Origin: Desulfatibacillum alkenivorans DSM 16219
GTDB taxonomy: Bacteria; Desulfobacterota; Desulfobacteria; Desulfobacterales; Desulfatibacillaceae
Reading direction: 5' to 3'
DNA length: 64,000 nt
NCBI RefSeq assembly: GCF_900142135.1
Contig: NZ_FQZU01000034.1
Coordinates: forward strand, 1-64,000
The notes below the pieces were generated by a model. That model made no database searches, was not told the origin of the DNA, and saw nothing but the letters and a program-made list of their open reading frames with translations. A program made the translations under genes and the position numbers. Positions 32,566 through 48,850 of the stretch are shown piece after piece (position 1 is the stretch's first letter; each line of letters starts with the position of its first letter).

Positions 32566-35064
32566 TTGAAGCTGAAACCATGCATCATATTTGCAAGCAT
32601 TGTGTTTGTTGCGGTAATAGCCCTTTGCAGCCCTGTCAGCGCCGGCGCCTCAAGCAGAACCAATATTTTGTTCGTGTTTTCCTGGCATCAGGGCATGCCT
32701 TGGCAGGCAGAGATTGAACGTGGGTTTAAAGAGCATTTAAAAAACGATGCCTTAAATGCAAATCTATTTTTTGAATATATGGACGCCGGGCGCTTCATGA
32801 GTGTGCACCATCCTGATATCTTTAAGAAATATTTATCGGAAAAATACAAAGACCATCGAATGGATTACGTTATCTTTGAAAGCGGACCCGCTAATAAACT
32901 GTTTTATTATTATCCGGATCTATTTGAAAATTCCAAAAAATATATTGTAAATCCAGATCCTATTCACGGAGGCCTGCATAATGATGGGTCCACGGTAATT
33001 CCTGTAACAGCCGACTATGAAAAAACAGTGCAGCACCTTTTGGCAGTCAGCAAAGGCAAAACCATTTACTTGGTTGCCGGAGCTACAGAAGCCGGCAAGG
33101 AAAGAGTTCAGAAAACTACCGAAATTACTTTAGCGTCAGCCCCCCAAAATAGAGTGGTTCCTCTGATTGGCCTGCCCATGGACCAGCTAATAAAAGAAGT
33201 CTCAAATTTGGAACCGGACAGCGTAATTTTTTACCTTCTGGTTTTTGAGGATGGAAAAGGAAATAGCCATATACCCTATGACGCAGCCAAACAAATTTCC
33301 AGTCACGCCAACGTCCCGGTATACAGTCTTTGGACTTCATTAATGGGGAGCGGCATTGCCGGCGGATATATGCTTAGCGGAGAGCTGGTCGGTAAAAAAA
33401 TCGCCGCCATAATAACGGATCCGGACCTCGCAAAGAAAACCGATTACGCAAATTTGGCGGATGAGTTCCACGGGTATTATTATGATTGGCGCCAGCTAAA
33501 ACGTTGGGGCATTGAAGAAAAATCACTGCCGCCCGGCAGTAGAATACTGTTCAAGGACATGACATTTTTCGAGCGCTACCGCCGCGTAATAGTGCTTGGT
33601 TCGTTGTCTCTTGTTCTTATAATTTCCTTCATTTGGATTGGAGTGTTAAGCAAGGAGATTTCCAAAAGAAAAAAAATTGAAAGGGAGTTGCAGGATAGTG
33701 AAAACAGATACCGCGGCCTTTCTGACGCCTCGTTCGAGGGGATTTTAGTTACCAAAAAGGGAAAAATTATTGATGCCAATAAAACATTGGAAGAAATGTT
33801 CGGCTATTCCCTGGAAGAGGCCGTTGGCATGAATGCAGCCGATTTGATGGCATCTAGTGAGCGGGAAGATGTCCTAAAAAAAGTGTTGTCCGGTTATGAA
33901 AGATCTTATGAAACTCTCGGCCGGAAAAAAGATGGGTCGATATTCCCCATTGAAATTCATGCCAAAATGGTTTCCTTCCAGGACCGCCAAGTGAGGGTCT
34001 CAGCAGTTCGCGACCTCAGCGAGCAGAAAAAGGCCCAAACGTTATTGATGGAAAGTGAAAAGAGGCTGATTGAGGCGCAAAAAGTTGCAAAAATGGGTTA
34101 CTATGTTTTCAACATAAAAACAGGATATTGGACAAACTCCCCCGAACTGGACAAACTGTTCGGGATAGGAAAAAGTTTTAATCGAAATATCGAGGGATGG
34201 AAGCAAATCATCCATCCGGATCACCAGGAAGAGATGATCGATTACTTACAGGTTCATGTGATTGGAAATCATCAAAAATTTGACAGAGAGTATAAAATTA
34301 TCAACCAAAGCAACCAAAAGGAGTATTGGGTGCATGGAAGGGGAGATCTGAAACTCGACGCCGACGGCGCCGCATTGGAAATGTTCGGCACGATTCAGGA
34401 TATTACCCAGCGTAGACAGATGGAGAAGGAATTGCGGGAAAGCCAACAAAACATGGCGTCCGTATTAAACAACACCCATGATTTGATTGTAAGGCTTGAT
34501 CGTAATTTCAGACATATATTCGCCAATCCCGCCCTGTACGCCGCGACCGGTCTTTCTCCGGAAGAGTATTTGGGAAAAACCAATGAAGAAATAGGAATGC
34601 CGGAAGAGCTTTCTCATTTTTTTAAAACCAAGCATGAAAAAGTTTTAGCGACAGGAAAGCCGGAAGTCTTTACATTTGGTTTTAGGACTCATAATGAGAG
34701 CCTCAGGGAATTTCAAGCTGTTGTGACTCCGGAATTCAATCCAGATGGAGAGGTTGAGACGATCATCAGCATCATGAGGGATATTACGGAATTAAAACAG
34801 GCGGAATCCGAAAAAAACAGAATCATTAAGGAGCTTGAAAAAACTCTGTCCGAGGTAAAAACCTTGCGGGGATTGATCCCGATTTGCTCCAGGTGCAAAA
34901 AAATTCGCGACGATCAGGGATATTGGAATAATCTGGAAACGTTTCTCGAGGAGCATTCCGATGCTTCTTTCAGCCACGGCATGTGCCAGGGATGCCTGGA
35001 AGAACTGTATGGTCAAGAGGATTGGTATATTAAAAGAAAGCAGAAGGAAGAAAGTCAGCCGTAA
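32566..35064 (+). CDS. PAS sensor with periplasmic ABC-substrate-binding-like domain, no kinase
   Basis: 832 aa from TTG 32566 after CCCGGGAG. It starts with a signal/anchor helix. Residues about 30-285 form a periplasmic binding-protein-like domain (NILFVFSWHQGMPWQAEIERG, VIPVTADYE, VAGATEAGKE). A membrane helix lies at about 343-362, then three PAS segments (about 380-490, 496-620, 625-745) with MRDITELKQAE-type ends, a coiled linker, and a C-terminal Cys-rich tail (PICSRCKKIRDDQGYW, later HGMCQGC). I find no HisKA, HATPase, GGDEF or methyltransferase domain, so how it signals is unclear. The CxxC...CxxC tail is recurrent in PAS proteins of this phylum and may bind zinc or act as the output. 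It is convergent with the response regulator at 35146. Confidence 0.75.
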   Translation: MKLKPCIIFASIVFVAVIALCSPVSAGASSRTNILFVFSWHQGMPWQAEIERGFKEHLKNDALNANLFFEYMDAGRFMSVHHPDIFKKYLSEKYKDHRMDYVIFESGPANKLFYYYPDLFENSKKYIVNPDPIHGGLHNDGSTVIPVTADYEKTVQHLLAVSKGKTIYLVAGATEAGKERVQKTTEITLASAPQNRVVPLIGLPMDQLIKEVSNLEPDSVIFYLLVFEDGKGNSHIPYDAAKQISSHANVPVYSLWTSLMGSGIAGGYMLSGELVGKKIAAIITDPDLAKKTDYANLADEFHGYYYDWRQLKRWGIEEKSLPPGSRILFKDMTFFERYRRVIVLGSLSLVLIISFIWIGVLSKEISKRKKIERELQDSENRYRGLSDASFEGILVTKKGKIIDANKTLEEMFGYSLEEAVGMNAADLMASSEREDVLKKVLSGYERSYETLGRKKDGSIFPIEIHAKMVSFQDRQVRVSAVRDLSEQKKAQTLLMESEKRLIEAQKVAKMGYYVFNIKTGYWTNSPELDKLFGIGKSFNRNIEGWKQIIHPDHQEEMIDYLQVHVIGNHQKFDREYKIINQSNQKEYWVHGRGDLKLDADGAALEMFGTIQDITQRRQMEKELRESQQNMASVLNNTHDLIVRLDRNFRHIFANPALYAATGLSPEEYLGKTNEEIGMPEELSHFFKTKHEKVLATGKPEVFTFGFRTHNESLREFQAVVTPEFNPDGEVETIISIMRDITELKQAESEKNRIIKELEKTLSEVKTLRGLIPICSRCKKIRDDQGYWNNLETFLEEHSDASFSHGMCQGCLEELYGQEDWYIKRKQKEESQP

Positions 35065-35145: not shown

Positions 35146-36525
35146 TTAGTCGGTATAGCCGTATTTGGCCAGCTTGCTGTGCAGGGTTTTTCGGGTGATG
35201 CCCAGCCTGCGCGCCGCCTCGCTTTTGTTGCCGTCCACGGCCCTGAGAGTGGTCAGAATCGCTTTTTTTTCCACTTCCTCCAAAGACTGGAGAATGGGCT
35301 CCTGCTCAACAACCGGCTCCATGGGCTCGTCGTCGCATACGGGGCCGCAGATGCCTAAGGGAAGCTCCTTTTCCGTGATGAACTCCCCGGTCAGGAGGAT
35401 CACCGCCCTTTCCATGGCGTTTTCCAACTCCCGCACATTGCCCGGCCAGGGATGCTTCAACAGCATGTCCATGGCCTGGGGGGTTATGCCTTTGACGTGC
35501 TTCCGGTTTCTTTCCGCGAATTTATCCAGAAAATACTGAGCCAGCAGATGAACGTCCCCCTCCCTCTCCCGCAGGGGGGGGATGCGGAGCGTCACCACGT
35601 TCAGGCGATAAAACAAATCTTCCCGGAACTTGCCGTCCGCAACTTCCTGCTCCAGATCCCGGTTGGTGGCGGCGATAATGCGAACATCCACCTTGACCGT
35701 TGCGTCGCTGCCCACCCTCTGGACCTCTTTTTCCTGGATGGCGCGTAAAAGTTTGGCTTGCATGGTCAGGGGCATTTCGCCGATTTCGTCCAAAAACAAA
35801 GTCCCCTTGTCCGCCTGGACGAACCTGCCGTCTCTTTTCTTGTCAGCTCCGGTAAAGGCCCCTTTTTCATGCCCGAATAGCTCCGACTCCAAGAGGGTTT
35901 CTGTAAGGGCCGCGCAATTGAGCACAACCAGGGGGCCGTCCTTGCGCTGGCTTCCTTCGTGGATGGAACGGGCCACCAGCTCCTTGCCTGTGCCGCTCTC
36001 TCCGGTGATGAGGACCGTGGCTTCCGTGGGGGCGATCATGCTCACCATGTCGGTAAGCTCTTTCATGACCGAGCTTTTTCCAATAATATCCCGCAATCCG
36101 GCGCGAAAGCCCAGAGCCTGCTTCAGCTCCTTGTTTTCCTCCTTCAGGCCCGCGTATTCCCGGGCTCTTTCAATGGTCAAACGCAGGTCCTCAAAGTCCA
36201 GGGGCTTGGTCAGATAGTCGTAGGCGCCGGTTTTCATGGCTTCGATGGCGGACTCCACCGAGGAGTAGGCGGTCATGATTAACACGGGAATGGAGGGATT
36301 GTACTCCTTGATGAGCTTGAGGGCCTGAATGCCGTCCATTTCCGCCATACGCACATCCATAAGAATGACGTCATAGGGGCCTTCCCGCACCATATCCACG
36401 GCGATGGATCCGTCCTCTGCCGTTTTTACGTTATAGCCCCAACTTTTGATAACCGTATAAAGGGTTTTACGGTGGCCCTCATCGTCGTCCACCACCAGAA
36501 TGTCGGCCTTTTTTTCCAAGTTCAT
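35146..36525 (-). CDS. Sigma-54-dependent response regulator, NtrC/ZraR type
   Basis: 459 aa from ATG 36525, with GAGGC five bases upstream. Receiver domain (1-120) with the DD pair, phospho-acceptor Asp in LMDVRMAEMDG and Lys in LTKPLD. Sigma-54 AAA+ domain (about 145-370) with GESGTGKE (Walker A), GAFTGA (sigma-54 loop) and LDEIGEMP (Walker B). C-terminal Fis-type HTH (AARRLGITRKTLHSKLAKYG). It activates sigma-54 RNA polymerase from distant enhancers. It starts 10 bp after the kinase stop, so the two are an operon. The three -24/-12 promoters with a shared upstream motif at 38452-47559 are good targets. I call it ZraR-like because its probable targets include ZraP homologues. Confidence 0.9.
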   Translation of the reverse strand: MNLEKKADILVVDDDEGHRKTLYTVIKSWGYNVKTAEDGSIAVDMVREGPYDVILMDVRMAEMDGIQALKLIKEYNPSIPVLIMTAYSSVESAIEAMKTGAYDYLTKPLDFEDLRLTIERAREYAGLKEENKELKQALGFRAGLRDIIGKSSVMKELTDMVSMIAPTEATVLITGESGTGKELVARSIHEGSQRKDGPLVVLNCAALTETLLESELFGHEKGAFTGADKKRDGRFVQADKGTLFLDEIGEMPLTMQAKLLRAIQEKEVQRVGSDATVKVDVRIIAATNRDLEQEVADGKFREDLFYRLNVVTLRIPPLREREGDVHLLAQYFLDKFAERNRKHVKGITPQAMDMLLKHPWPGNVRELENAMERAVILLTGEFITEKELPLGICGPVCDDEPMEPVVEQEPILQSLEEVEKKAILTTLRAVDGNKSEAARRLGITRKTLHSKLAKYGYTD

Positions 36526-36535
36526 AGATGCCTCG

Positions 36536-38347
36536 TTATTCTCGCCCTGATTGCGCCTTTGGATCTTGGGCTTTTTTTGCTCCGGGAATAAACATGGAGA
36601 CCAGGGTCCCCTGTCCGGGCCTGCTTTCCACCTTGATGCGCGCGTGATGGCCTTCCAGGATTTTGTGCACGATGGCAAGGCCCAGGCCGGTGCCGGAGGC
36701 CTTGGTCGTGTAATATGGGTCGAATATCCTGTTAAGGTCCTGGGAAGGAATGCCTTTTCCCGTATCCTCCACTTCCACGCGGACGTCGCCGGAGTCTTCC
36801 ACGGCGGTGCGCACCGTCAACACGCCGCCCTTATTCATGGCGGCCATGGCATTCAGGTACAAGTTAAGCAGACATTGGGTCAGGCGATCTGCATCAGCCA
36901 TGGCAAAAGCCGGTTTTCCGCCCGGCTGGCTGATGATGTTGATATTCTTGGTCAAAGCGTCCTGCTTTACCAGTTTCAGGGAATGGGGAATCAACTCGTT
37001 GATATCCATGGGCCGCAGATTCAAGTCCGAAGGCCGCGCAAAATCCAGCAACTGGCTGACCACGCGGTTTAGGCGATCCACCTCCCGAGCCATACCCTGG
37101 GCGATTTCCTCATCATCGGAGCCCTTGTCGAATTTTTGGCTGAAATAGGTCGCCAGGCCCTTGATGGAGCTGAGAGGATTGCGAATCTCATGCGCTACGC
37201 CTGCGGCAAGCTCGCCGATGGCCGAGAGCTTTTCCTGCCGGCGCACCTGCTCCTGGAGGTCCCGGACCTCCCGCAGGTCCCTCAAAATCACAATCCTGCT
37301 GACGTAATGGCCCTGCTCGCCCAGGATGTCCGAAGAACTGACGCTAAGGGGAAAGACGCCTTTGCCTTTGATCTCGCACTCAATTTCCTGCTCGGTCACG
37401 GAAATTCCCGGCTCCAAAAGATAAACAAGACCTTCCATGTGTTCCGAAAAGATCTTTTTTGCGTCCCGGCCAAGGGTTTTCATGCGAGATAAGCCGGTGA
37501 TGATCTCGGCGGAATGATTGAAAAAGGCCACCCGGCCCGCGGCATCCATGGCGATAAGACCCACAGGAAGGCTGGTCACCACCTCCTTGGCGAACGCGCT
37601 GGTATCCTGCAGCATCCGCCTGGCCACCTGATAACTTTGCGCCCAATATAAGGCGAGAAAGCCGCCCAGCCCCATAAGGCATATGAGCCCGGCCATGAGC
37701 AGGGTGTTGCGCATATCAACGCTGCGCTCGTTTTCAAAGGGCGCCATGTTCAGGCCCACAAAAATGATCTGGTCGCTGGAATCGCCCTTGGAGGAAAAGC
37801 ACCAGTCCATTCGGGTCTGACCCGTGTTCGGATCCACATGCATGGTCATGCCCCGGCCGCGCATTTTTCCCTGCCCGGGCAAAGGACAAAAGGCCCGGTA
37901 CACTTCAAAGGCTTTGACCTTTTTTTCCACCCCCACTATGCGCCAAAGCCCGCTGGTTGTGGTTTTCAATGCATCCCGGGAAAAACGGTTGGGCACAGTC
38001 TGCCCAATTTTGGAGGAATTGCTGTGAGCCAAAATCTTTCCGTCCTTGTCCACAATTCCGATATATAAAATGTCGGGATGCCCCGCCGCCTCCTCCAGCA
38101 ATGTCTGAACCTGGTTCCCGCCCCAACGCATGCCCATCAGGCCGGTTCTGGCGCCCGCCTCCACGGCCCGAATGATGGCGGCCCCCTTCTCACTTAAAAT
38201 ATAGGACATATGATGCCGCTGCCTGTTGATGTCCCTGACCGTCATGGCCACGACAGCGGCCAGTAGAATCAAGGAAGCGCTGGCCACCACCAAGGGCGGC
38301 ATGGGGGCCCATTCGTCCATGTCTCGCGATTTTTTTCTAAACAGCAT
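36536..38347 (-). CDS. Membrane sensor histidine kinase, ZraS-like
   Basis: 603 aa from ATG 38347 (AAAGGATC upstream). Two membrane helices (about 18-40 and 210-232) enclose a periplasmic sensor domain. Then comes a PAS domain (about 245-370) starting VTSLPVGLIAMDAAGRVAFF. The HisKA H-box is GVAHEIRNPLSS, with LYLNAMAAM (N-box) and VEDTGKGIPSQ plus GTGLGLAIVHKI (G-boxes). It autophosphorylates and passes the phosphate to the response regulator 10 bp downstream. The gene is divergent from the ZraP-like gene at 38664, as in zraP-zraSR loci. The ligand is inferred to be a metal or envelope-stress signal from this context; the sequence itself does not show it. Confidence 0.9.
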   Translation of the reverse strand: MLFRKKSRDMDEWAPMPPLVVASASLILLAAVVAMTVRDINRQRHHMSYILSEKGAAIIRAVEAGARTGLMGMRWGGNQVQTLLEEAAGHPDILYIGIVDKDGKILAHSNSSKIGQTVPNRFSRDALKTTTSGLWRIVGVEKKVKAFEVYRAFCPLPGQGKMRGRGMTMHVDPNTGQTRMDWCFSSKGDSSDQIIFVGLNMAPFENERSVDMRNTLLMAGLICLMGLGGFLALYWAQSYQVARRMLQDTSAFAKEVVTSLPVGLIAMDAAGRVAFFNHSAEIITGLSRMKTLGRDAKKIFSEHMEGLVYLLEPGISVTEQEIECEIKGKGVFPLSVSSSDILGEQGHYVSRIVILRDLREVRDLQEQVRRQEKLSAIGELAAGVAHEIRNPLSSIKGLATYFSQKFDKGSDDEEIAQGMAREVDRLNRVVSQLLDFARPSDLNLRPMDINELIPHSLKLVKQDALTKNINIISQPGGKPAFAMADADRLTQCLLNLYLNAMAAMNKGGVLTVRTAVEDSGDVRVEVEDTGKGIPSQDLNRIFDPYYTTKASGTGLGLAIVHKILEGHHARIKVESRPGQGTLVSMFIPGAKKAQDPKAQSGRE

Positions 38348-38451
38348 GTTTGATCCTTTGCCGGCGGGTGATGTTAACAATCATGGCCTGTTCCATAATA
38401 GCGCAACTGTATAATTTGTAAACACCCTGTATCCTCCGGAACCGCAATTTT

Positions 38452-38467
38452 GGGTAAAAAAGATACA
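38452..38467 (+). promoter_or_regulatory. Candidate enhancer (upstream activating site), cassette 1
   Basis: GGGTAAAAAAGATACA, matching GGATAAAAAAGTTACA (46718) and GGATAAATAAGTTACA (47432). It starts 115 bp before the GG of the sigma-54 -24 box, against 113 and 114 bp in the other two cassettes. Presumed site for the ZraR-like regulator. Confidence 0.55.
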
Positions 38468-38565
38468 TTCCACAAGTGCATTTTTATTATCCTCAGCCGT
38501 TAAAAGCCTCCACAAAGACAATTAATCCTTTTTTATTCAAGCAGTTAACCACTTTCCACAATCTT

Positions 38566-38580
38566 TGGCACGCCTGTTGC
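38566..38580 (+). promoter_or_regulatory. Sigma-54 promoter, cassette 1
   Basis: TGGCACGCCTGTTGC: -24 TGGCAC and -12 TTGC with the canonical 10 bases between GG and GC. 83 bp before the ATG of the ZraP-like gene. Confidence 0.85.
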
Positions 38581-38663
38581 CTATGTAGAGGGCAAGAGCA
38601 ATTACCCTGCCAAAGATTAAACATACGGCGGAATCTTTAAACCTTTAGTCGGGAGACAAACAC

Positions 38664-39056
38664 ATGAAGAAGTTAGCAACCGGAGTCGTAACATTAGTCA
38701 TGGTCGGCCTATTGGCCGGATCGGCCCTGGCCTGGGAATGCTGGGGCGGCGGCCGCGGCTATGGGGCCAACTATAACAACTACAACGCCGAAAGTCTGGA
38801 GTCCCGCAACAAGTTCCTGAGCGAAACAGCGGATCTTCGCAAGGACCTGGCTGCCAAACGCACCCAACTGGATGCGGTCATGTCCAGCGCCAATCCGGAC
38901 GCCGAAGCAGCGGGCAAGATTTCGCGAGAAATATTTGACATCAAAGAGCAGCTTCGCGCTAAAGCGGACGCTGCCGGAGTCGCCGGCCCCCTCGCCGACG
39001 CCGGCTACGGCTGCCAGGGCCAAGGAAGACGCGGCGGCGGAAATTGCTGGCGTTAG
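38664..39056 (+). CDS. ZraP-like periplasmic metal/stress protein, copy 1
   Basis: 130 aa. Signal peptide MKKLATGVVTLVMVGLLAGS... with cleavage after ALA. The mature part begins Gly/Tyr-rich. It then has the helical core SRNKFLSETADLRKDLAAKRTQLDAVM of the ZraP/CpxP-like superfamily, and a Gly/Cys-rich tail. ZraP binds zinc and acts as a periplasmic chaperone in the ZraSR response. The gene is divergent from zraS-like 36536-38347 and preceded by a sigma-54 promoter. Close paralogue at 47650, and a broken copy at 46922. Confidence 0.8.
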   Translation: MKKLATGVVTLVMVGLLAGSALAWECWGGGRGYGANYNNYNAESLESRNKFLSETADLRKDLAAKRTQLDAVMSSANPDAEAAGKISREIFDIKEQLRAKADAAGVAGPLADAGYGCQGQGRRGGGNCWR

Positions 39057-39108
39057 CCGCATCTTACTAAGCCTGTTTTTTTCATCATACCCAACCTCCT
39101 CTAAACTA

Positions 39109-39151
39109 GGACCGGCTTTCGGGAAGCCTCCCCCTGACCGAAAGCCGGTCC
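39109..39151 (+). terminator. Cassette 1 downstream hairpin A
   Basis: Perfect 14-bp stem GGACCGGCTTTCGG/CCGAAAGCCGGTCC with a 15-base loop, 52 bp after the ZraP-like stop. A second small hairpin (CAAACCC/GGGTTTG) follows. Equivalent hairpins lie after the other two copies. Confidence 0.6.
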
Positions 39152-39264
39152 AAACCCTCATCTGGGTTTGGACAAAAAATCTGAAAATGAATTTTTTAGC
39201 AATATAACTAACAAGTTAAATTACCGCAGTGCATTCTCCTCTTTATCCCCTCTTCATCCCCCGG

Positions 39265-39295
39265 CCCCTCTTTCCCGCATTGGGAAAGGGGGGTT
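39265..39295 (+). repeat. Cassette 1 downstream hairpin B
   Basis: CTTTCCC gcatt GGGAAAG hairpin flanked by C-run and G-run, without a clear T-tract. It matches sequences at 47315 and 48292, where T-tracts do follow. Confidence 0.55.
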
Positions 39296-39623
39296 GCCCG
39301 TTTGACGCCGAGTGAACATAAACTCAAAATATTTTCCCGAAAATAGTGCCATGCTTTGCGGCAACATTTCACTGATTGGATCAGGCGTTAAACAGCTTTC
39401 CCCGTAGCGCCTTCCCTCTCTGCCCCAATAAATTTTGTCGGCAACTATCATCAACATTTGATATATCAGCACTATAGTGACAGTTGATGTATAATATTAA
39501 TTTTTAGTTCTCATATTCACGGTTGCCAAAGAAAGCATTATCTGTTAGGCGATCTTCAAACAAAACAGATATTTCAAATAAATATTTGTAAGACTTTATG
39601 TTCTCATGGAGGGGGGAATTACT

Positions 39624-42600
39624 ATGCTCTTACGCCGCCAGTCCATTTTGTTGTGGACGATCGTCTTATTTCTCATCACAGCAGTTTCAGCCGCAGCTTT
39701 TCAAACTTCCGATCTCACAGGGACATGGCATGTGCACAGGCTCCTTTCCGGCGATGCGCCTGACGCCGTTGGATGGGAGTACGGCACATGCGATATCACT
39801 CCTGGCGGGGTCATTTCCTACACAGGGACATCTACCTGCTCAGGCGAAGTCACGGAGACCGGCGCCCTGTCTGTTGACAGCTCCGGCCAGGTATCCGTGG
39901 CGGAAGACGCATCCTATAGCGGGGCTCTCAATGCCGGGAAAGATCTAATCGTTGGAAGCTACACCGCCCCCGGGGGAGGCAGGGCTTTGGAAATCGCCCT
40001 GAAGCGGACTCCAGGAATGGTGTTCAGCCAGGCGGACCTTGCCGGTACGTGGCGGATATACGGTCTGGTATCAGGCGATTCCCCCGCACAGACGCCCGGG
40101 TGGACCTACCAAACCCAGGCGATTCTGGACGCAACCGGAAACGGCGTTTACGGGACGCCCCAATACAACAGTATGGGCACTAGTTGGGACCATCTTATCA
40201 ACGCCCTTCCCATGGACTCCAACGGAATCATGAGCTTTTTATCGGAAGACGGCCCCGCCCACGGCGCCATGAGCGATGACAAAAATCTGTTGGTGATCGC
40301 GGGGACCGGTTGCCCTGGGTACAAGGATGATGTGTGCGGGTTTAATATGCAGATCTGGGTGCGGGCCGGGGTAACGTGTTTTAGCCAGGAGGATCTGGCA
40401 GGCTACTGGACGATCCATGGACTGGTTGCTGGCGATGCATCCGCCGGGGCTAACTTTATCGGCTGGACCCGGTCCACCGGCACATTGGATCACGCGGGAT
40501 GGTATGAAACGGATGCCTGGGAAACCAGCAGCGGATCCTCCGATCCTGCTGCAACTGCCATCCCGGTGACCTTTGACGGGCTTGTCTCCTTCATGTCCGA
40601 CGGCGTGAGCGCAGGCCATGGCGCGGTAATGGCTTCCAAGGATTTCTGGGTCCTTGTACAGAATGACGGGGGAGGGGGATTCAGCCTGGTAACAGGCGTG
40701 CGGCAAAAGGCTGCCCCCCGGGTGTTCGGCGACTTCAATTATTCCGGCAACCTGGACCTTGGGGACGCCATCCAGATTCTCCAGATCCTGGCAGGCCAGC
40801 GCTCCAACACCTTGGATGGAGGCATTCAGGCGGCATTGGAGAGATTTGAGGCCATTCTCGCCAAGGATTCCACCTCGGTGGACGATCCGGACTGGGACTA
40901 CGTGATAAGCCGGAATTTCATGGACTTCGGCCGGGATAGAGAAGACTATCTCGCCCCAGTGGTGAACGGCAGCCTGCAAGGGGCGGTCTTCGAAGGCATG
41001 CAAATCGTGGAGGTGGCGGACGGCGATCCGCCCCGGGTCCGCATATCCTGCCACATCATGATGCCGGACGGGTCCCGGTTTTTTGTCTCTCATCTGTGGT
41101 TCACCCAGGAAAACGGTGTTTGGCTCATGACCGGGGACGGGCTGCCCATGGAGTTTGAGGTGGATGCTTCCGCTGCTCTGAACCAAAATACGGGAACGGT
41201 GCAGGAAAACGGAATCGGTTTCAGAGCGCACGATTATTATCATCATACCGTAAACAAGGGCATTGATAATATTCTCGTCACCGGCCCCGGACTGCCCTCC
41301 CAGGGGCTGGTCATGCAAGTGGTTGACAACAGCGACCCGGACGACGTGAGGTACCGCGTTTTCAAGGACGATGAGGCCATCGAGCTTTTTCAGGAGGCGG
41401 ACGGGCTGGATACATCCGTAATCCCAAATAACGCCCGGTATGTGTTCACGCCGCGGGATGCGTCCGGCAACGCCGTGTTCAGCCAGTCTTTCACAAAGAC
41501 CCTGCCTCTGCCGCCCCTGTCCAATGCGGAGCTGGAGTCCAATCCCCAGCGATATTTTCCCTTGCTCACAGCTCCGGAAGGAAGCGTCTTGTCCTCTTTT
41601 GACGGCGGCGATCTTACTGTCAAGTGGACCGAGCCCGACGCCTTGGACGACCCCAATGTAATCAAGGTGGAAGTGGAATGGGCTTCCGGTTCTGGCAAAG
41701 GAGGGGGGATCTATGGCGCCGCCCTGGCTGTCCTCACCGGGCTGGACGCTTCCCTGGGACAGGCTGATACGGCCGACTTTACTTTGGAATGCTACGACAA
41801 GACCATGCGGGAATTCACCACCCATTGCAAGGTGGACGTCTCTGATAGTATCAAGCTGGTGCTGGCCAGTTATCACGCGCGCTATGCGTCTGGCGTTCCG
41901 TTCAGCCTGGAAACACGTTCGGCAGGTTCTCCGGAACAAATTATTGTGGTGGATGAAAACGGGCTGCCTCCGGCCAGCCCCTATGCGCTTTCCATCTACA
42001 GTTCTTCAGGAAATGTCTGGCAAATGGAAAACATTCCAGCTGGAGTGAGTGAAATCTCCATGGGCGTTGTTCCCGAGGGAGCCGATGAGGTTTTTGCCTT
42101 CACAAATACTAGTGCAAACGGGACCTATTGGGCTGAATTGAAGGCGGGAAACCATAAAGAAAAGGACAGCTATTTATGGAAGGTTACGGATGGAGAGCCC
42201 ATGTCAACCGGATCGCAGGTTGCGGTCAATATGTCAAATCCCCAGGGGATTTCGTTCAGCGGGTACCTTGGGATAGCCTTTATTGATTCCAACGATGAAA
42301 TATACATGAATCTGTTCGAGTATACAGGGGGCAGCGAGTCCTTCTCTGCTGTGCCTCCTTCCGGCGATTGGATTTGGTTTGTTAGCGTCGCGACCGACAC
42401 CGGTGGAAACGGCTGGCTGCCGCTTTTTGATCACGAACTTCACGACGTAAGCGCAGTGATTCCATTGGGAAGTAATGAACTGTTGGGCGGGGGAAATTCA
42501 GTGGATCTGGAACTGTCATCCATGCAGGTCCAGGGGGGCGTGCGTTTCCAGGATGCGTCCGGCATTTTGCAGTCACCTCCCGCAAATGCGGTCATCGAGC

Positions 42601-43415
42601 TTGAGGCTGAAGATTATGAAGACGTGGAAGGCGCTTTCATCCCACAGAGCGACGGCTCCTTTTCCGGCTCAATGCATTACTTGAAGAAGGTCGGAGATGC
42701 GGCCATACCACAAGACGCCTTGATGGAGGTGAATGTTTTTCTGGACGTTCACAGAACCGGTGATGTGGGTCACAACTCTTTCGTTTTCGCGGAGTTGGAT
42801 GGAATAAGCGCCTCTAATCTGGGGACCGTGCAGAATCCACTGGCGACAATAACGGGCCATTCGTTGAACATCACGGTGAACGGCATTTTAGGCGACGACC
42901 AGTGGCTTTGCCACCCCACCAACCAAATTCTTACCGCTTCGAGCAATACCATTACAGGAATCCTGTACTCCCATCCTTCCGGCTCAGACGATGTTGACCT
43001 TTTCTATGATAGAAACGGCAACGGATGGGTCGAAAACGAAGAGGACAATGTGAATATCCAACCAGATGCAACCAGTTTTTCCATTCCGGAAAACCTGCTT
43101 TTTTGCTTGTTTCAGTTCAAAGATGACGTGTGGCATAATATGGATTTCGAACTTAATAACAATTGGCAGCGTTGGTATGGGCACAGAAGCACTTCCAGCA
43201 AAGGAGAAGGCCTCGCCGTCATCGGTCTTGGAAATGCGCAGCCCGATCCGAACCTTCCCACGGCCATAACCCTGTTTCAGGATGCAAACCACAACGGGCA
43301 CTTGGACTCCGGAGAGGATCACGCCGTTCTCAACAACATCCCGGCCCTTACAGACCGGTACTGCCTGGACTACCCGGACGTGATCCAGGCAAGCGATTTT
43401 TCGCCCTGGCCCTGA
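39624..43415 (+). CDS. Large secreted protein with lipocalin-like repeats, dockerin-like segment and shared C-terminal region
   Basis: 1263 aa from ATG 39624 (GGAGGGGGGAAT upstream; an ATG at 39606 would sit within that ribosome binding site). Signal peptide to about residue 26. Three repeats of about 110 aa follow (each starting F-x-x-x-DLxGxW-x-x-x-xL-x-GD, at about 27, 132 and 252). Next is a dockerin/EF-hand-like segment (GDFNYSGNLDLGDAIQILQI, about 368-388), then beta-rich regions. From about residue 740 to the end lies a region of some 520 residues homologous to the C-terminal region of the next protein. It ends DRYCLDYPDVIQASDFSPWP, and acidic D-x-N-x-N-G loops nearby suggest calcium binding. 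No catalytic motif. Function unknown; likely surface or extracellular. Confidence 0.75.
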   Translation: MLLRRQSILLWTIVLFLITAVSAAAFQTSDLTGTWHVHRLLSGDAPDAVGWEYGTCDITPGGVISYTGTSTCSGEVTETGALSVDSSGQVSVAEDASYSGALNAGKDLIVGSYTAPGGGRALEIALKRTPGMVFSQADLAGTWRIYGLVSGDSPAQTPGWTYQTQAILDATGNGVYGTPQYNSMGTSWDHLINALPMDSNGIMSFLSEDGPAHGAMSDDKNLLVIAGTGCPGYKDDVCGFNMQIWVRAGVTCFSQEDLAGYWTIHGLVAGDASAGANFIGWTRSTGTLDHAGWYETDAWETSSGSSDPAATAIPVTFDGLVSFMSDGVSAGHGAVMASKDFWVLVQNDGGGGFSLVTGVRQKAAPRVFGDFNYSGNLDLGDAIQILQILAGQRSNTLDGGIQAALERFEAILAKDSTSVDDPDWDYVISRNFMDFGRDREDYLAPVVNGSLQGAVFEGMQIVEVADGDPPRVRISCHIMMPDGSRFFVSHLWFTQENGVWLMTGDGLPMEFEVDASAALNQNTGTVQENGIGFRAHDYYHHTVNKGIDNILVTGPGLPSQGLVMQVVDNSDPDDVRYRVFKDDEAIELFQEADGLDTSVIPNNARYVFTPRDASGNAVFSQSFTKTLPLPPLSNAELESNPQRYFPLLTAPEGSVLSSFDGGDLTVKWTEPDALDDPNVIKVEVEWASGSGKGGGIYGAALAVLTGLDASLGQADTADFTLECYDKTMREFTTHCKVDVSDSIKLVLASYHARYASGVPFSLETRSAGSPEQIIVVDENGLPPASPYALSIYSSSGNVWQMENIPAGVSEISMGVVPEGADEVFAFTNTSANGTYWAELKAGNHKEKDSYLWKVTDGEPMSTGSQVAVNMSNPQGISFSGYLGIAFIDSNDEIYMNLFEYTGGSESFSAVPPSGDWIWFVSVATDTGGNGWLPLFDHELHDVSAVIPLGSNELLGGGNSVDLELSSMQVQGGVRFQDASGILQSPPANAVIELEAEDYEDVEGAFIPQSDGSFSGSMHYLKKVGDAAIPQDALMEVNVFLDVHRTGDVGHNSFVFAELDGISASNLGTVQNPLATITGHSLNITVNGILGDDQWLCHPTNQILTASSNTITGILYSHPSGSDDVDLFYDRNGNGWVENEEDNVNIQPDATSFSIPENLLFCLFQFKDDVWHNMDFELNNNWQRWYGHRSTSSKGEGLAVIGLGNAQPDPNLPTAITLFQDANHNGHLDSGEDHAVLNNIPALTDRYCLDYPDVIQASDFSPWP

Positions 43416-43473
43416 ATTTATCATTTGCACGCACAAAGCAAGCACTGAACAAATAGGAGAATGGAGCGGAAAA

Positions 43474-46410
43474 ATGCGAGCATGGAAGACTGGGTTGGTA
43501 CTAATAGCAATGCACTTGTGTTTGTTGGGCCAAATTCACGCCCTGGAAGTGGGGCGGGAGTTTACCGTCACTCAGAACAACGCCACCCTGATTGGAACCA
43601 TTGCCGGGTTTGACGGGGACAATTACCTGATTGTCTATAAATATGCCGGCGGGGTGTATTGCCAATTTACGGCGCCCGATGGTTCCCTGCGGGGAGATCC
43701 CATGAAAGCCGGGGATTCAGACGCCATCGCTGTTTACGGCGCCTATGGGAACGGCGACTACCTCGTTACATGGACGGACAACAATCAACACGTACTGGGG
43801 CGTTTTGCGTCCAAATCCGGAGGCTTCAAGGGCGCGGCCTTTTCCATCAACCAAACCAGCCACGGCAAGAGCCTGCGTGGTTGCTGTTTTGGAGCGGATG
43901 AATTTCTGGTGATCTGGGAGGACAAGCGGGGAGCGGACGACGACATGTACGGTCAAATTGTTTCCATCTCCGGGGATCTGGTGGGTTCGGAAATACCCGT
44001 CAGCACGGCGGCGGACGACCAGAGACAGGGCGCTTTGTGTCACGACGGCGCCCGCTTCCTGGTTGCCTGGTATGACTACAGAAACGGAATCAATAACAAA
44101 CATGTTTTTGGACAATTTGTGGACGCTTCAGGAAACCTTTCCGGCGCAAATTTTCAAATCAGCCAGACGCCTGCTTTTGACGGTATGCCTCCGGCCGTGG
44201 CCTTTGACGGGAATAATTATCTGGTGGTCTGGAATAAAAAATTCGATTCTGAAAACGCGGAAATATGGGATCTGCATGCGCGGATAGTATCCACAAGCGG
44301 CCAGTTCCCTAAAGGCGGCGAGTTTGTGGTGACGGACGCCTTCGGCGTACAGAATTTTCCCTCTGTCTCTTTCAATGGATTGAATTACCTGGTCACGTGG
44401 ATGGACGGACGAAGCGATGAGGGCATTGAACTCATGGGACAGTTTGTTTCCCGGGAAGGGACGTTAAACGGGGATGAGATCACCATAACCGGCCTGGACC
44501 CTGCGCCCTCTTCAGAGGACCAGCCCTATTTCGCCGATCAGATCTGGAGCGGCGAACAATACCTTACCGTTTACGGCCGGGGAGACATCGAGGGCTTCAT
44601 GGACAGCGGTTTCGCTACGATGGTTGGGGACTTAACCGGCAGGATCGTGCGCCCCCTGGCAAATGATGCCGATGCGGCCGCGGTTTTGAAAGCCCTTTGC
44701 AACATTCTTGACGATCAAAGGGACTCGTGTGTGCAGGCCGACCTCACCCAGGACGGCAAACTAGGGCAGGAGGAGGCCCTGTTCGCCCTGCAGGCCCAGG
44801 ATATCAGACAAACGCCTGCGGAACCCGATTTTACCCTGGTTTTGAGGAGTGACGGCTCCCGGTATGCTTCTGGAACTCCGTTTTCCATGCAGACATTGCC
44901 AGCAGGGTCGCCTGAAACGATTCGGGTGGTCAATGAACATGGATTGCCGCCTGCAACACCCTATTCACTGATGATCCATTCTTCCACAGGTGTTGTATGG
45001 CGTGTGGAAGATATTCCCGCCGGTCTTAGCGACATCACTTTAGGCGAACTCCCCTCCGGGGCTACAGAGATTTCTCCCTTTACCAACTTAACGGATAATG
45101 GCACGTACTTGGTCGCCGTTACCCTGGAGGATTCGGGAATAGGTGACAAACAGGGGGGAGACATGCGATGGTGGCAGGTCACCGATGGCGCCCCCTTGGG
45201 CGGGCGGCAAATGACGGTTAACCTGACCAATCCCCAGGATATCCAGGTAGATGGCTTGGTTATGTTCCTGTTTATAGATGAAAGCAATGGCCAAGCCAGC
45301 TTTCAATCTTTTGATTATGCTTCCGGAAGCGCTGTTTTTCAGCCTTATATCCCGGCAAATGACTGGATTGCCGTCGTTAGTGCTGAAAACGATGCAGGAG
45401 GCAATGGATGGCTGCCTTTCCTTGAACACGAGCTTGATGACATTTACAGCTTCTATTTATTGAAAAGTGATGAGGTTATATCCGCAGGGTTTGAAGTCAA
45501 CCTGGAATTAGGCACGACCCAGGTGCAGGGGGCTGTCTGTTTTCAGGACCAGTACGGCAATCTGCAGGCGCCGCCCGAGGATGCCGTTGTGGAGGTTGAA
45601 GTCGCCGATTATGAGAACCTCGAGGGCGCCTATATCCCCCGGAACGACGGCTCTTTTTCCGGCCCTCTGTATTACCTCAAACAACTCAGCGATCCCCCCA
45701 TCTCATTAAGTCTTTTTGAAGAAGTGAACGTGTTCCGCGACACATACAGGACCGGTGACTGCGATCACAGCAGTTACAGGTATGGCCGGGTGTATCTACA
45801 GGACGTTTCTGACTTGGGGTCCGTCCACAACCCTCTGGTCACTTTTACGGCCCAAACAGTGGACATCACGGTGAACGGCATTCTGGGCCAGGACCAATGG
45901 GTGTGTCATGACACACAAGAGGTACTGAACGCTGCCAATAATAAAATCACAGGGACAGTATATACGGTTCCCAATGGTTCAGATTCATTGGGCCTTTATT
46001 TTGATCGGAACAAAAACAGTGTGGTGGACGATCGGGAGCACAGTGTCGCCCCCAATATAGAGCAGACAACCTTTGATATCCCAGAGAATCTGCTCATCGC
46101 CAAGTTTGAATTTGAGGGCTTTCGTTGGGACAGGCACGACATTATTGCGGATAACGGCTGGTACGTGCGATGGGGAGGCATTGGTTCGTCCACGAGCGAG
46201 GGAGGCTTCGACACCGAGGGCTTTGACAACTATCAGAGCAATCCCAGCCTGCCCACCCACTTTATTTTCTACCAGGATACAAACGGGAACAGAAATGTGG
46301 ATTCCGGCGAGCCCGCCGCGACTCTCACCAACATCCCGGCCCTAACGGACCGGTACTGCCTGGACTATCCGGACGTAATCCAAGCAGGTGATTTCTCGCC
46401 TTGGCCTTGA
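43474..46410 (+). CDS. Large secreted protein, paralogue of the preceding one in its C-terminal half
   Basis: 978 aa, ATG 43474, GGAG upstream, 58 bp after the preceding gene. Signal peptide (about residues 1-22). Residues about 25-395 are repeated beta-propeller-like blades of about 50 aa, each with NYLVVWxDxR-type cores (for example NGDYLVTWTDNNQHVLGRF, ARFLVAWYDYRN, LNYLVTWMDGRSDEGIELM). A dockerin-like DLTQDGKLGQEEALFAL follows at about 423-440. Residues about 452-978 align with 740-1263 of the previous protein, including the closing DRYCLDYPDVIQAGDFSPWP. The two genes form a tandem pair from duplication with different N-terminal modules. Function unknown. Confidence 0.75.
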   Translation: MRAWKTGLVLIAMHLCLLGQIHALEVGREFTVTQNNATLIGTIAGFDGDNYLIVYKYAGGVYCQFTAPDGSLRGDPMKAGDSDAIAVYGAYGNGDYLVTWTDNNQHVLGRFASKSGGFKGAAFSINQTSHGKSLRGCCFGADEFLVIWEDKRGADDDMYGQIVSISGDLVGSEIPVSTAADDQRQGALCHDGARFLVAWYDYRNGINNKHVFGQFVDASGNLSGANFQISQTPAFDGMPPAVAFDGNNYLVVWNKKFDSENAEIWDLHARIVSTSGQFPKGGEFVVTDAFGVQNFPSVSFNGLNYLVTWMDGRSDEGIELMGQFVSREGTLNGDEITITGLDPAPSSEDQPYFADQIWSGEQYLTVYGRGDIEGFMDSGFATMVGDLTGRIVRPLANDADAAAVLKALCNILDDQRDSCVQADLTQDGKLGQEEALFALQAQDIRQTPAEPDFTLVLRSDGSRYASGTPFSMQTLPAGSPETIRVVNEHGLPPATPYSLMIHSSTGVVWRVEDIPAGLSDITLGELPSGATEISPFTNLTDNGTYLVAVTLEDSGIGDKQGGDMRWWQVTDGAPLGGRQMTVNLTNPQDIQVDGLVMFLFIDESNGQASFQSFDYASGSAVFQPYIPANDWIAVVSAENDAGGNGWLPFLEHELDDIYSFYLLKSDEVISAGFEVNLELGTTQVQGAVCFQDQYGNLQAPPEDAVVEVEVADYENLEGAYIPRNDGSFSGPLYYLKQLSDPPISLSLFEEVNVFRDTYRTGDCDHSSYRYGRVYLQDVSDLGSVHNPLVTFTAQTVDITVNGILGQDQWVCHDTQEVLNAANNKITGTVYTVPNGSDSLGLYFDRNKNSVVDDREHSVAPNIEQTTFDIPENLLIAKFEFEGFRWDRHDIIADNGWYVRWGGIGSSTSEGGFDTEGFDNYQSNPSLPTHFIFYQDTNGNRNVDSGEPAATLTNIPALTDRYCLDYPDVIQAGDFSPWP

Positions 46411-46455
46411 CCAGACTTCCATTAAATACATGGATAGGAACCGCATAATGAATAG

Positions 46456-46482
46456 TCGGCCGCCCGATATACGGGCGGCCGA
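46456..46482 (+). terminator. Hairpin after the secreted-protein pair
   Basis: Perfect 11-bp stem TCGGCCGCCCG/CGGGCGGCCGA with loop ATATA, 46 bp after the stop at 46410. No T-tract, so termination is probable but not certain. Confidence 0.6.
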
Positions 46483-46717
46483 TTACTGCTCATGCCAGGC
46501 TGCTGTCACTTGAGTCATTTATTTCCTCTTTTTCCGGATTCCAATCCATCCCCTGCCAATATTCTGCAATGTCTCTGGGCTGCCTTTTCGGCGATGTGGA
46601 GGCCGCAGCAATTTCTCCTGGCGGCGGTCCCCTTTTCTGGATCTTCCGCAAGCCGGGATTCTTCGTTTGAGGCTTGTCTACATTTTACCCAACTGTTTCC
46701 CTCCGGCGCATCATAGT

Positions 46718-46733
46718 GGATAAAAAAGTTACA
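46718..46733 (+). promoter_or_regulatory. Candidate enhancer, cassette 2
   Basis: GGATAAAAAAGTTACA, 113 bp before the GG of the sigma-54 -24 box. Matches cassettes 1 and 3. Confidence 0.55.
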
Positions 46734-46829
46734 GCGGGCAAAATATTTTTTATTTTACAGCGAATTGCTTTCGAAGGAAAAATCCATTTTTTTCATAAAA
46801 ACAAATACTTAAACTTTTATTGCCACTTT

Positions 46830-46844
46830 TGGCACGCCCATTGC
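46830..46844 (+). promoter_or_regulatory. Sigma-54 promoter, cassette 2
   Basis: TGGCACGCCCATTGC with canonical 10-base GG-GC spacing, 77 bp before the ATG at 46922. The promoter is intact although the gene is broken. Confidence 0.85.
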
Positions 46845-46921
46845 TTATGTAGGAGGGCAAGAACGGCGGCGCAAACAAACAGATCGAACGCGGACCGCCG
46901 CAAACAGAAGGAGGCTGATTT

Positions 46922-47089
46922 ATGAGAAAATTGTCTGAAAGCATAGCGAACAAACCCATGGTCGGCCTCCACAAAGCATTGCAATTGTGCGCCAGACTCA
47001 CCCAGCAGGAAACGCCGGACCCCTTGCCGGCAATGACCTCAGCCTGGGAAGTCAGGGGCCGGAAAGGATGCGGCGGCGGACAACGCTGA
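46922..47089 (+). pseudogene. Internally deleted and frameshifted ZraP-like copy
   Basis: A 55-codon reading frame (ATG 46922, TGA 47087) after a strong AAGGAGG. Its first 16 residues align position for position with the intact copies (MRKLSESIANKPMVGL against MKKLATGVVTLVMVGL). The central helical core is missing. The bases CCGGACCCCTTGCCGGC match the 3' end of the 47650 copy but are read here in another frame, and the last codons GGCGGCGGA again match. It is therefore a decayed copy, or possibly a short reused peptide gene. Promoter and downstream hairpins are retained. Confidence 0.65.
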
Positions 47090-47145
47090 TCCCTGCCGCA
47101 GCCGGAAAGGCCCAACGTTTCATCATCCCCAACCTCCTCTATCTC

Positions 47146-47194
47146 TCGGACCGGTTTTCGGGAAGAACCCTCCCCTGACCGGAAGCCGGTCCGA
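47146..47194 (+). terminator. Cassette 2 downstream hairpin A
   Basis: TCGGACCGGTTTTCGG paired with CCGGAAGCCGGTCCGA (two wobbles), loop of 17 bases. Homologous to 39109-39151 and 48143-48191. A second small CCCCTC/GAGGGG hairpin follows. Confidence 0.55.
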
Positions 47195-47314
47195 GGCCCC
47201 TCTTTCGAGGGGAAATATGGGGCGAAGCAAGTACGAAATTATACTTTAGCAATGAAGATAACAAGTTAAATACCGCAGTATATTCCCCTCTTCATCCCCC
47301 TCTTCATCCCCTGG

Positions 47315-47355
47315 CCCCTCTTTCCCATACTGGGAAAGGGGGGTTGCCTTTTTTT
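47315..47355 (+). terminator. Cassette 2 downstream hairpin B with T-tract
   Basis: 8-bp stem CTTTCCCA/TGGGAAAG flanked by C- and G-runs, followed by TTGCCTTTTTTT. Homologous to 39265 and 48292. Confidence 0.6.
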
Positions 47356-47431
47356 GGGGAGGCGGTTTTTACCCGCTGCACAGGCCGCCGGATATTTTTT
47401 ACCCATGTGTACCCATGCGACTCGGCACAGT

Positions 47432-47447
47432 GGATAAATAAGTTACA
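47432..47447 (+). promoter_or_regulatory. Candidate enhancer, cassette 3
   Basis: GGATAAATAAGTTACA, 114 bp before the GG of the sigma-54 -24 box. Matches cassettes 1 and 2. Confidence 0.55.
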
Positions 47448-47544
47448 CATACACGTTTACACGGAAAGCAATTTTTATCCTCCCCGCCTCTTATATGAAA
47501 AAATATATAATAAAATCAATGTAATATAAAATTACTTCCATCCT

Positions 47545-47559
47545 TGGCACAACTGTTGC
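47545..47559 (+). promoter_or_regulatory. Sigma-54 promoter, cassette 3
   Basis: TGGCACAACTGTTGC with canonical spacing, 90 bp before the ATG at 47650. Confidence 0.85.
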
Positions 47560-47649
47560 CAATATAGAAGGGCAAGAGCAGCGAGGCTATTTAACCATAA
47601 ACAAGAGGGATAGACAAAAACCCTTTGGAATAAAGCAGGAGTCAGCGCC

Positions 47650-48090
47650 ATGAAGAAAATATCAGCAGGAATCGTAACCATAGCAGTCATCGGACTTCTC
47701 GCCGGGTCTGCTTTAGCCTGGGATCATTATGGTCGCGGCTACGGCCACTATGGAATGGGCTATGGTATGGGCTACGGCATGCACCATGATTACGCCTATG
47801 GCGACGACGCTGGCGTAAGCCGGGAAGCGCGAAACCAATTTTTGACGGAAACGGCGGATCTGCGCAAGGATCTTGCATCCAAACGCATAGAGCTGGACGC
47901 AGTGATGTCTGCAGAGAACCCGGACCAGGAAACGGCCGGAAAACTATCCAAGGAGGTTTTTGAGCTAAGAGAGCAGATTCATGCCAAAGCTGAAGCAGCC
48001 GGAGTCGCCGGACCCCTTGCCGGCAGAGGCTACGGCTATGGCCATTACGGACGCGGGATGCGCGCCGGCGGCGGATACTGCCGGCGATAA
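47650..48090 (+). CDS. ZraP-like periplasmic metal/stress protein, copy 2
   Basis: 146 aa, ATG after GCAGGAGTC. Signal peptide with cleavage after ALA. After it lies a Gly/Tyr/His-rich stretch (YGRGYGHYGMGYG, MHHDYAYG) likely to bind metal. Then comes the helical core ARNQFLTETADLRKDLASKRIELDAVM, nearly identical to copy 1, and a tail AAGVAGPLAGRGYGYGHY ending GGGYCRR. More His-rich than copy 1, so its metal preference may differ. Expected to be periplasmic and induced by the ZraSR-like system through the sigma-54 promoter at 47545. Confidence 0.8.
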   Translation: MKKISAGIVTIAVIGLLAGSALAWDHYGRGYGHYGMGYGMGYGMHHDYAYGDDAGVSREARNQFLTETADLRKDLASKRIELDAVMSAENPDQETAGKLSKEVFELREQIHAKAEAAGVAGPLAGRGYGYGHYGRGMRAGGGYCRR

Positions 48091-48142
48091 GCCCGAACCA
48101 AGTGGCTGGTCACGATCATCCACCTTTTATCTCCTCAATCCC

Positions 48143-48191
48143 CCGGGACGGTTTTCGGAAAGAACCCTCCCCCGACCGAAAGCCGGCCCGG
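48143..48191 (+). terminator. Cassette 3 downstream hairpin A
   Basis: CCGGGACGGTTTTCGG paired with CCGAAAGCCGGCCCGG (two wobbles). Homologous to the hairpins at 39109 and 47146. Confidence 0.55.
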
Positions 48192-48291
48192 TCCCCTTAA
48201 TTGAGGCGAAAACGAGGAAAGATGATCGGATAAACCCAATAAAGACATTATACCGCAGTTATTCCTATCTCAATCACTCCTCATCATCCCC

Positions 48292-48333
48292 GGCCCCCTT
48301 TCCCGCATTGGGAAAGGGGGCCACTCTTTTTTT
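48292..48333 (+). terminator. Cassette 3 terminator (hairpin B)
   Basis: Perfect 13-bp stem GGCCCCCTTTCCC/GGGAAAGGGGGCC, loop GCATT, then ACTC and seven T. The best-formed terminator of the three cassettes. Confidence 0.8.
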
Positions 48334-48560: not shown

Positions 48561-48818
48561 TCAGCCTAAAAGTTCCTTCAATTCCTCTTTGCGTTTATCG
48601 CCGATGCCGTCCCAACGCTTTCCCTGGAGGGCTCCTTCAAAAGAAAAGAGATAGTAGCAGAGGGGAAGTCGGGCTCCCGGGTATGCGTCCCGGATTTTTC
48701 TGTGGGCTTCCACCGGACCGATAGCCCGGAGGTCGTCTTCTGTGTAAACGCCTATATGGTTGAGGCGTTTTGCGATGGTGTTGCCAATGTTCTGCAGTTC
48801 TTCTACTTTCTGACTCAT
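48561..48818 (-). CDS. TfoX C-terminal-domain protein (helix-hairpin-helix)
   Basis: 85 aa from ATG 48818, preceded by GGAAGGTTTG; an ATG at 48830 would put this site inside the gene. The sequence (VEELQNIGNTIAKRLNHIGV, YTEDDLRAIGPVEAH, and WDGIGDKRKEELKELL) is the TfoX C-terminal domain, a helix-hairpin-helix-like fold. The usual N-terminal TfoX domain is absent. In other bacteria full-length TfoX/Sxy controls competence. The role of this stand-alone domain is unknown. Confidence 0.8.
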   Translation of the reverse strand: MSQKVEELQNIGNTIAKRLNHIGVYTEDDLRAIGPVEAHRKIRDAYPGARLPLCYYLFSFEGALQGKRWDGIGDKRKEELKELLG

Positions 48819-48850
48819 CAAACCTTCCATCTGTTAGCATTGCGAACTCC

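Follow-up and report, generated by a model that had tools for sequence, protein, structure and literature searches.

A candidate ZraR/sigma-54-dependent regulatory RNA in the 3' UTRs of ZraP-type genes and in free-standing units of Desulfatibacillum

Three sigma-54 units and their neighbourhood

The window analysed here is a 64-kb stretch of the genome of Desulfatibacillum alkenivorans DSM 16219 (6.47 Mb in 102 contigs, 100% complete), and it carries three units with the same order of parts, namely an upstream box and a sigma-54 promoter, then a ZraP-like gene, and beyond it hairpins A and B with a C-rich linker between them (Table 1). All parts of the three units were recovered where the original prediction had placed them, as were two large ORFs (1269 and 978 aa) between units 1 and 2. 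The ZraP-like gene is intact in units 1 and 3. In unit 2, which had been described as broken, the start (ATG..MVGL) and the end of the gene are present, the centre is deleted and the frame is shifted. Gene orientation, together with Pfam and NCBIfam matches, bears out that unit 1 is divergent from a ZraS/ZraR-like pair. An alignment of the units reveals homology from end to end, 5' UTR and 3' module included, and not in the core promoter alone.

Table 1. Features of the three units and of the adjoining genes, in window coordinates
Feature	Position	Strand	Basis or remarks
zraR-like sigma-54 response regulator	35146..36525	-	Pfam: receiver, AAA+ sigma-54 activator, Fis-type HTH
zraS-like sensor histidine kinase	36536..38347	-	Pfam: sCache, PAS, HisKA, HATPase
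Unit 1 upstream box, TGTATCC..N..TGGGTAAAAAAGATACA, putative ZraR site	38428..38467	+	Conserved in five units
Unit 1 sigma-54 promoter, TGGCACGCCTGTTGC	38566..38580	+	Pattern match
Unit 1 ZraP-like gene, 130 aa, signal-peptide-like start	38664..39056	+	HMM relatives
Unit 1 RNA module	39083..39298	+	Genome-unique apart from units 2 and 3; anti-SD-like CATCATACCCAACCTCCTC; hairpin A 39109-39151; hairpin A2 39152-39169; C-rich linker with CCGCAGT; hairpin B 39263-39298
Two paralogous large secreted-protein genes (1269 aa, 978 aa)	39606..46410	+	Between units 1 and 2, outside the units
Unit 2 upstream box (..GTGGATAAAAAAGTTACA)	46694..46733	+	
Unit 2 sigma-54 promoter, TGGCACGCCCATTGC	46830..46844	+	Pattern match
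Unit 2 broken ZraP remnant	46922..47089	+	Central deletion, frame shift; 55-codon frame still open
Unit 2 RNA module	47121..47349	+	Hairpin A 47145-47195; hairpin A2 47197-47212; C-rich linker; hairpin B 47313-47348, followed by T7 (terminator-like)
Unit 3 upstream box (..GTGGATAAATAAGTTACA)	47408..47447	+	
Unit 3 sigma-54 promoter, TGGCACAACTGTTGC	47545..47559	+	Pattern match
Unit 3 ZraP-like gene, 146 aa	47650..48090	+	Pfam PF13801
Unit 3 RNA module	48114..48322	+	Hairpin A 48143-48191; linker; hairpin B 48292-48322 with T-run

All three units have a perfect sigma-54 promoter. The pattern TGGCACN5TTGC has three matches in the window (38566, 46830 and 47545), all on the plus strand and all within units, against a chance expectation of 0.18 in 64 kb, and none of 100 shuffled sequences reached three. 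The motif proposed as enhancer-like, GGRTAAAWAAGWTACA, was written from the same three sites that it matches exactly, and its exact matches in the 6.47-Mb genome are confined to these units (38452, 46718 and 47432). When two mismatches were allowed in a genome scan, matches outside the units were fewer than with a reversed-pattern control. A wider regulon defined by this box was rejected, given that exact copies occur nowhere else in the genome. The box is retained in five of five units, three in the window and two in a sister species, Desulfatibacillum sp. MAG7. Just 5' of the unit 1 box, at 38409-38427, lies the sequence TTTGTAAACACC, which recurs in the zraS-zraP gap of two other genomes (G007 and G004) and also in the sister species; it could belong to the zraS promoter or represent a second conserved site of regulation.

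In E. coli and Salmonella, zraP has a -24/-12 promoter and is divergent from zraSR, and ZraP is a known stress marker. The locus described here shares the divergent zraSR genes and the promoter type, and its ZraS exceeds the NCBIfam equivalog cut-off (NF007688, 483 bits versus 479). It differs in having three units, each with a long 3' RNA module, and in that ZraR and ZraP fall below their cut-offs, such that ZraS is the only one of the three proteins to exceed its own. ZraR scores 614 bits against the cut-off of 760 for NF007689, which is nevertheless its best-scoring family, and it shares 87% amino acid identity with its sister-species counterpart. The proteins of units 1 and 3 are 62% identical to each other and reach 36 and 41 bits against the cut-off of 200 for NF008584; with the Pfam model PF13801 (cut-off 29.2), unit 3 scores above the threshold (39.5 bits) and unit 1 below it (17.6 bits). 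By these scores, both are ZraP-like proteins and not equivalogs.

Similar arrangements exist elsewhere in the order. Three further genera of the family have zraS orthologues, each with a divergent sigma-54 promoter that is followed by ZraP in two of the genera, and the layout around the unit 1 promoter recurs in G007, in G002 and, as far as the contig extends, in G004. HMM relatives of ZraP are found in 160 of 291 genomes of the order, and a TGGCA-type promoter lies 5' of about two thirds of 30 such loci inspected. The original prediction regarded the multi-copy layout as unusual. This view requires qualification, since ZraP in more than one copy is no rarity in the order, where several of the 291 genomes have at least two ZraP-like (A6) matches, most of which are weak. 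In Desulfovibrio alaskensis, zraP was reported to be strongly downregulated under copper (PMC8836040), and the inducing signal of the present units is therefore not to be assumed.

The two proteins encoded between units 1 and 2 are paralogous over a 563-aa C-terminal half (48% identity) and have no Pfam or NCBIfam family match. Both of these secreted-type proteins end in ...DYPDVIQA[SG]DFSPWP, and a FGDFNYSGNLDLGDAIQIL stretch within them looks dockerin-like. Among 77 relatives no close relative of the pair was found, and weak matches were obtained to very large proteins in G002 and G003.

Loss of the coding part and retention of the RNA module in two species

The sister-species locus (L043, minus strand) comprises zraR, zraS, the divergent unit a, unit b and then an 89-aa gene that is the same as the gene beyond unit 3 in the window; it comes from a MAG with about 10x coverage, in which tandem repeats could be misassembled. 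Unit b is complete and is the only source of ZraP at this locus. Unit a retains the box (GTGGATAAAAAAGTTACA), a promoter, TGGCATGGCTGTTGC, of the form TGGCATN5TTGC, a 5' UTR hairpin, GGCAAGAGCAATTACCCTGCC, and hairpins A, A2 and B, and has neither an RBS nor a ZraP frame. Judged against unit b, its deletion extends from just 5' of the RBS through just beyond the stop codon. The two deletions differ, in that the one in unit 2 is internal and leaves both gene ends, and the one in unit a has removed the whole gene.

These findings bear on a proposal, made in the original prediction, of a dose-expanded zinc or envelope-stress response, in which the tandem copies would supply more ZraP; on this view the broken unit would be incidental. 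Two intact, diverged ZraP genes with strong sigma-54 promoters would suit such a role, as would the occurrence of several ZraP-like genes in other genomes of the order. However, one of three units here and one of two in MAG7 no longer make ZraP, and these protein-less units keep the box, promoter and RNA module intact in both species; moreover, a single unit supplies the protein in MAG7. A dose effect is thus very unlikely to explain the arrangement. Because the ORF-less units keep these three elements, the item present in multiple copies would be the regulated RNA and not the protein. The best-supported reading of the sequences is that a regulated RNA is common to all units and that the protein is dispensable in two of them. 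That the protein gene was lost in two cases while the switch and the RNA were kept suggests that the RNA itself is a working product.

We also considered whether unit 2 and unit a encode short new peptides. Unit 2 has a good RBS (AAGGAGG) and an open frame of 55 codons, and the unit a transcript contains a frame of 51 codons. However, these two frames are mutually unrelated, the ATG in unit a has no RBS and is a mere 10 nt or so from the predicted transcript start, and the unit 2 frame is shifted relative to ZraP and has no protein-family match in Pfam. New peptides are therefore a most improbable explanation for the two ORF-less units.

Sequence comparisons reveal that the RNA module is under purifying selection. 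Between units 1 and 2, the coding remnant is identical at 93 of 154 positions (60%) and the module at 131 of 149 (88%; Fisher p=5e-8). In the intact units 1 and 3, coding and module identities are about equal (72% and 70%), such that conservation of the 3' UTR equals that of intact coding ends (0.70 versus 0.72) and is well above that of the decayed remnant and of fourfold sites. Likewise, the ORF-less RNAs of unit 2 and unit a match at 124 of 143 positions (87%) in the aligned A and B regions, compared with 646 of 1284 fourfold sites (50.3%) in 11 flanking genes of the source genome and MAG7 (p=3e-18). Stems A and B covary: 96.5% of cells are paired, five pairs have changed on both sides, and the covariation score is higher than in 500 of 500 shuffles and in every slid control, for a small set of five sequences, the alignment of which also supplied the structure.

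Copies that lack the ORF show no faster evolution than those that have it. The branches of the ORF-less copies are the shortest in the RNA tree (0.106 and 0.106, with the others at 0.22-0.49). Relative-rate counts of 25:12 (unit 1 versus unit 2) and 28:14 (unit b versus unit a) also indicate that the ORF-less copies are slower, at marginal significance (p about 0.04-0.05 with the nearer outgroup, non-significant with others).

Another possible explanation is that the module acts as a 3'-end stabiliser and terminator of the zraP mRNA, and that units 2 and a are recent pseudogenes that appear intact through youth or gene conversion. Copies from one genome cluster in the RNA tree, where a 93% split places units 1 and 2 on one side and the MAG7 units on the other, as conversion would produce. 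Conversion within a genome (units a and b are alike, as are units 1 and 2) could make a dead copy look alive, and the cross-species comparison, with its sample of two species, leaves room for this. In addition, units 2 and 3 have a good intrinsic terminator in hairpin B; the corresponding hairpin of unit 1 and of both sister-species units has no good T-run. However, the decay of the unit 2 remnant relative to its module indicates that unit 2 is not young, and the ORF-less copies are the least diverged and not the most. Furthermore, a terminator alone needs no approximately 200 conserved bases with invariant unpaired segments, and a single hairpin suffices for ZraP genes in the rest of the order. 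We consequently regard a stabiliser with two pseudogenes as unlikely, and we favour the interpretation that the module is a regulated RNA with a role of its own.

Fold, distribution and accessible segments of the module

The RNA module, counted from hairpin A through hairpin B, occurs three times in the genome and no more, which rules out a dispersed repeat or a REP/MITE element. The modules fold 5 to 6 SD better than shuffled sequences, with z values of -6.0 (unit 1), -5.2 (unit 2) and -5.6 (unit 3). The best-conserved unpaired stretches are C-rich and comprise [CT]TCCTC located 5' of hairpin A, ACCCUCCCC in loop A, CCGCAGU, and UCAUCCCC located 5' of hairpin B. In fold predictions, most of the conserved C-rich stretches have a mean unpaired probability of 0.6-0.98; the exceptions lie in unit 3 and unit b, the two units whose anti-SD segment is predicted to be paired.

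The sequence CATCATCCCCAACCTCCTC is complementary to an ideal RBS plus start codon, which suggests pairing with translation starts. A pattern search for complementary RBS targets yielded one match with zero or one mismatch outside the units' own modules, at C57, and none of 13 other matches inspected was a convincing target start. No single extended complementary RBS target was found in this search.

Several other functions for the module were evaluated and rejected. Its position rules out a riboswitch or leader, because each module closes with a hairpin and the next unit owns a box and promoter; the unit 1 module is far from the next gene downstream. On inspection, the CAT..CCTCCTC segment is not part of an antisense gene, as the antisense frames differ between units, and the loops have no GGA such as a CsrA sponge would carry. 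Rfam covariance models, including those for anti-SD C-rich sRNAs, have no match in the window at gathering score.

The distribution of the module is narrow. A covariance model of the A region, applied to 291 genomes of the order, recovered no more than the five known copies plus two weak matches, of which one lies at the 3' end of an ORF, the other is intergenic and neither is near a ZraP gene. When 84,980 species genomes, a set from which close records of the source may have been left out, were scanned with a sequence pattern, nothing was returned but the MAG7 copies and two chance matches, one inside a MinD-like gene (L070) and one that reads as coding sequence (L072). ZraP loci elsewhere in the order mostly have one plain terminator-like hairpin shortly after the stop codon, indicating that the long module is specific to Desulfatibacillum. 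The ZraP terminator hairpin of one such locus in another genus (L091, in G007) has a CCUCC-type loop, TTCCTCCC, possibly by chance. A search for Hfq (PF17209) that is positive in E. coli and other controls detected none in the source genome, and any pairing by the RNA would accordingly be Hfq-independent.

Proposed mode of action, known systems and locus history

Given its retention without the protein gene, the RNA is probably a small regulatory RNA. We think it reasonably likely that its expression depends on ZraR and sigma-54, and that it resides in the ZraP 3' UTR and also in free-standing form, in a manner resembling CpxP/CpxQ. We infer the transcription, processing and target pairing of the module as follows. 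An activated ZraR-like protein would bind the approximately 40-bp box about 100 bp upstream and fire the sigma-54 promoter. Units 1 and 3 would then produce a zraP mRNA with a long 3' UTR bearing the module, which is probably freed by processing. From unit 2 and unit a, with their coding part deleted, the same promoter would yield the module almost alone, as a predicted ORF-less transcript of about 0.28 kb in MAG7 and about 0.5 kb here. Amid its stable hairpins, the RNA would expose C-rich and mostly predicted-unpaired segments (..CCTCCTC.. before hairpin A, ACCCUCCCC in loop A and UCAUCCCC before hairpin B), and it most likely base-pairs with the Shine-Dalgarno and start regions of target mRNAs. 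In this capacity it may be a non-coding partner of the ZraP-like protein within a single envelope/metal stress response, as CpxQ is of CpxP. More tentatively, these RNAs might constitute a Desulfatibacillum-only, Hfq-free sRNA family under ZraSR/sigma-54 control that was born in a ZraP-type 3' UTR and twice became free-standing by ORF loss.

CpxQ, released from the cpxP 3' UTR by cleavage, provides the Cpx response with its noncoding arm (PMC4817254, PMC9438474). In that enterobacterial system, and as proposed here, a small periplasmic chaperone of the CpxP/ZraP type is produced under a two-component envelope-stress system, and the chaperone gene is followed by a structured, conserved 3' UTR that acts as an RNA arm, with release of the RNA being predicted in our case. 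In contrast, cpxP is controlled by CpxR and sigma-70, whereas the Desulfatibacillum units would be under sigma-54/NtrC-type control, exist as several copies, include free-standing ORF-less members and are restricted to one genus. No sequence similarity to CpxQ was found (there is no Rfam match), and with no Hfq detected here, Hfq dependence is not a shared trait.

Anti-Shine-Dalgarno sRNAs with C-rich loops include the alphaproteobacterial cuckoo RNAs with CCUCCUCCC and the C-rich sRNAs of Staphylococcus. The module resembles these in presenting CCUCC-type unpaired segments among stable hairpins, but only one of its loops carries the motif and it matches no Rfam family. Among sulfate reducers, the mapped target of the Desulfovibrio vulgaris response regulator DVU0679 is a nearby sRNA, Dv_sRNA2 (PMC3333781). 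That case is similar in that a response regulator has an sRNA target, although the sRNA is located differently and involves no chaperone mRNA, as compared by description and not by sequence. Neither an RNA in the 3' UTR of a zraP gene nor sRNA work on Desulfatibacillum was found in the literature searched, which was largely without subscription journals.

If the proposed role is correct, these units would offer a natural experiment on sRNA birth, in which a 3' UTR RNA stands beside its free-standing descendants under identical promoters in two species. They would also provide a second CpxP/ZraP-type chaperone gene with an mRNA-borne RNA arm, unrelated to CpxQ and served by a different sigma factor. 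This would suggest convergence, in a phylum with little-studied RNA regulation and in a genome without detected Hfq, and the noncoding arm of a stress response would have outlived the coding arm.

The ORF was lost and the RNA kept in two lineages, probably in independent events. The simplest history, which the sequences make likely, starts with an ancestral pair of units, followed by a duplication here that gave rise to units 1 and 2 and by separate ORF losses in units 2 and a. Conversion between units blurs this history, such that independence of the losses is likely rather than proven. The original prediction envisaged tandem duplication and then insertion of the secreted-protein pair. Its first step agrees with the homology of the units and with the grouping of units 1 and 2 in the tree. 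An insertion in the source lineage fits the absence of both genes from the MAG7 locus and from the whole MAG7 assembly, with loss in the MAG7 lineage as the alternative.

Two further observations concern neighbouring genes. The 89-aa gene adjoining unit 3 (48561-48830) is identical with MAG7 at 81% of fourfold sites (29/36), compared with 35-61% for other flanking genes, which may reflect unusual constraint, recent exchange or small-sample noise. Between zraR and the gene at 30656, positions 32566-35064 encode an 832-aa PAS-rich protein with a signal-like start and a CxxC..CxxC end. This gene is missing at the corresponding place in MAG7 (L043) and is, by this comparison, a second lineage-specific insertion or loss at the locus.
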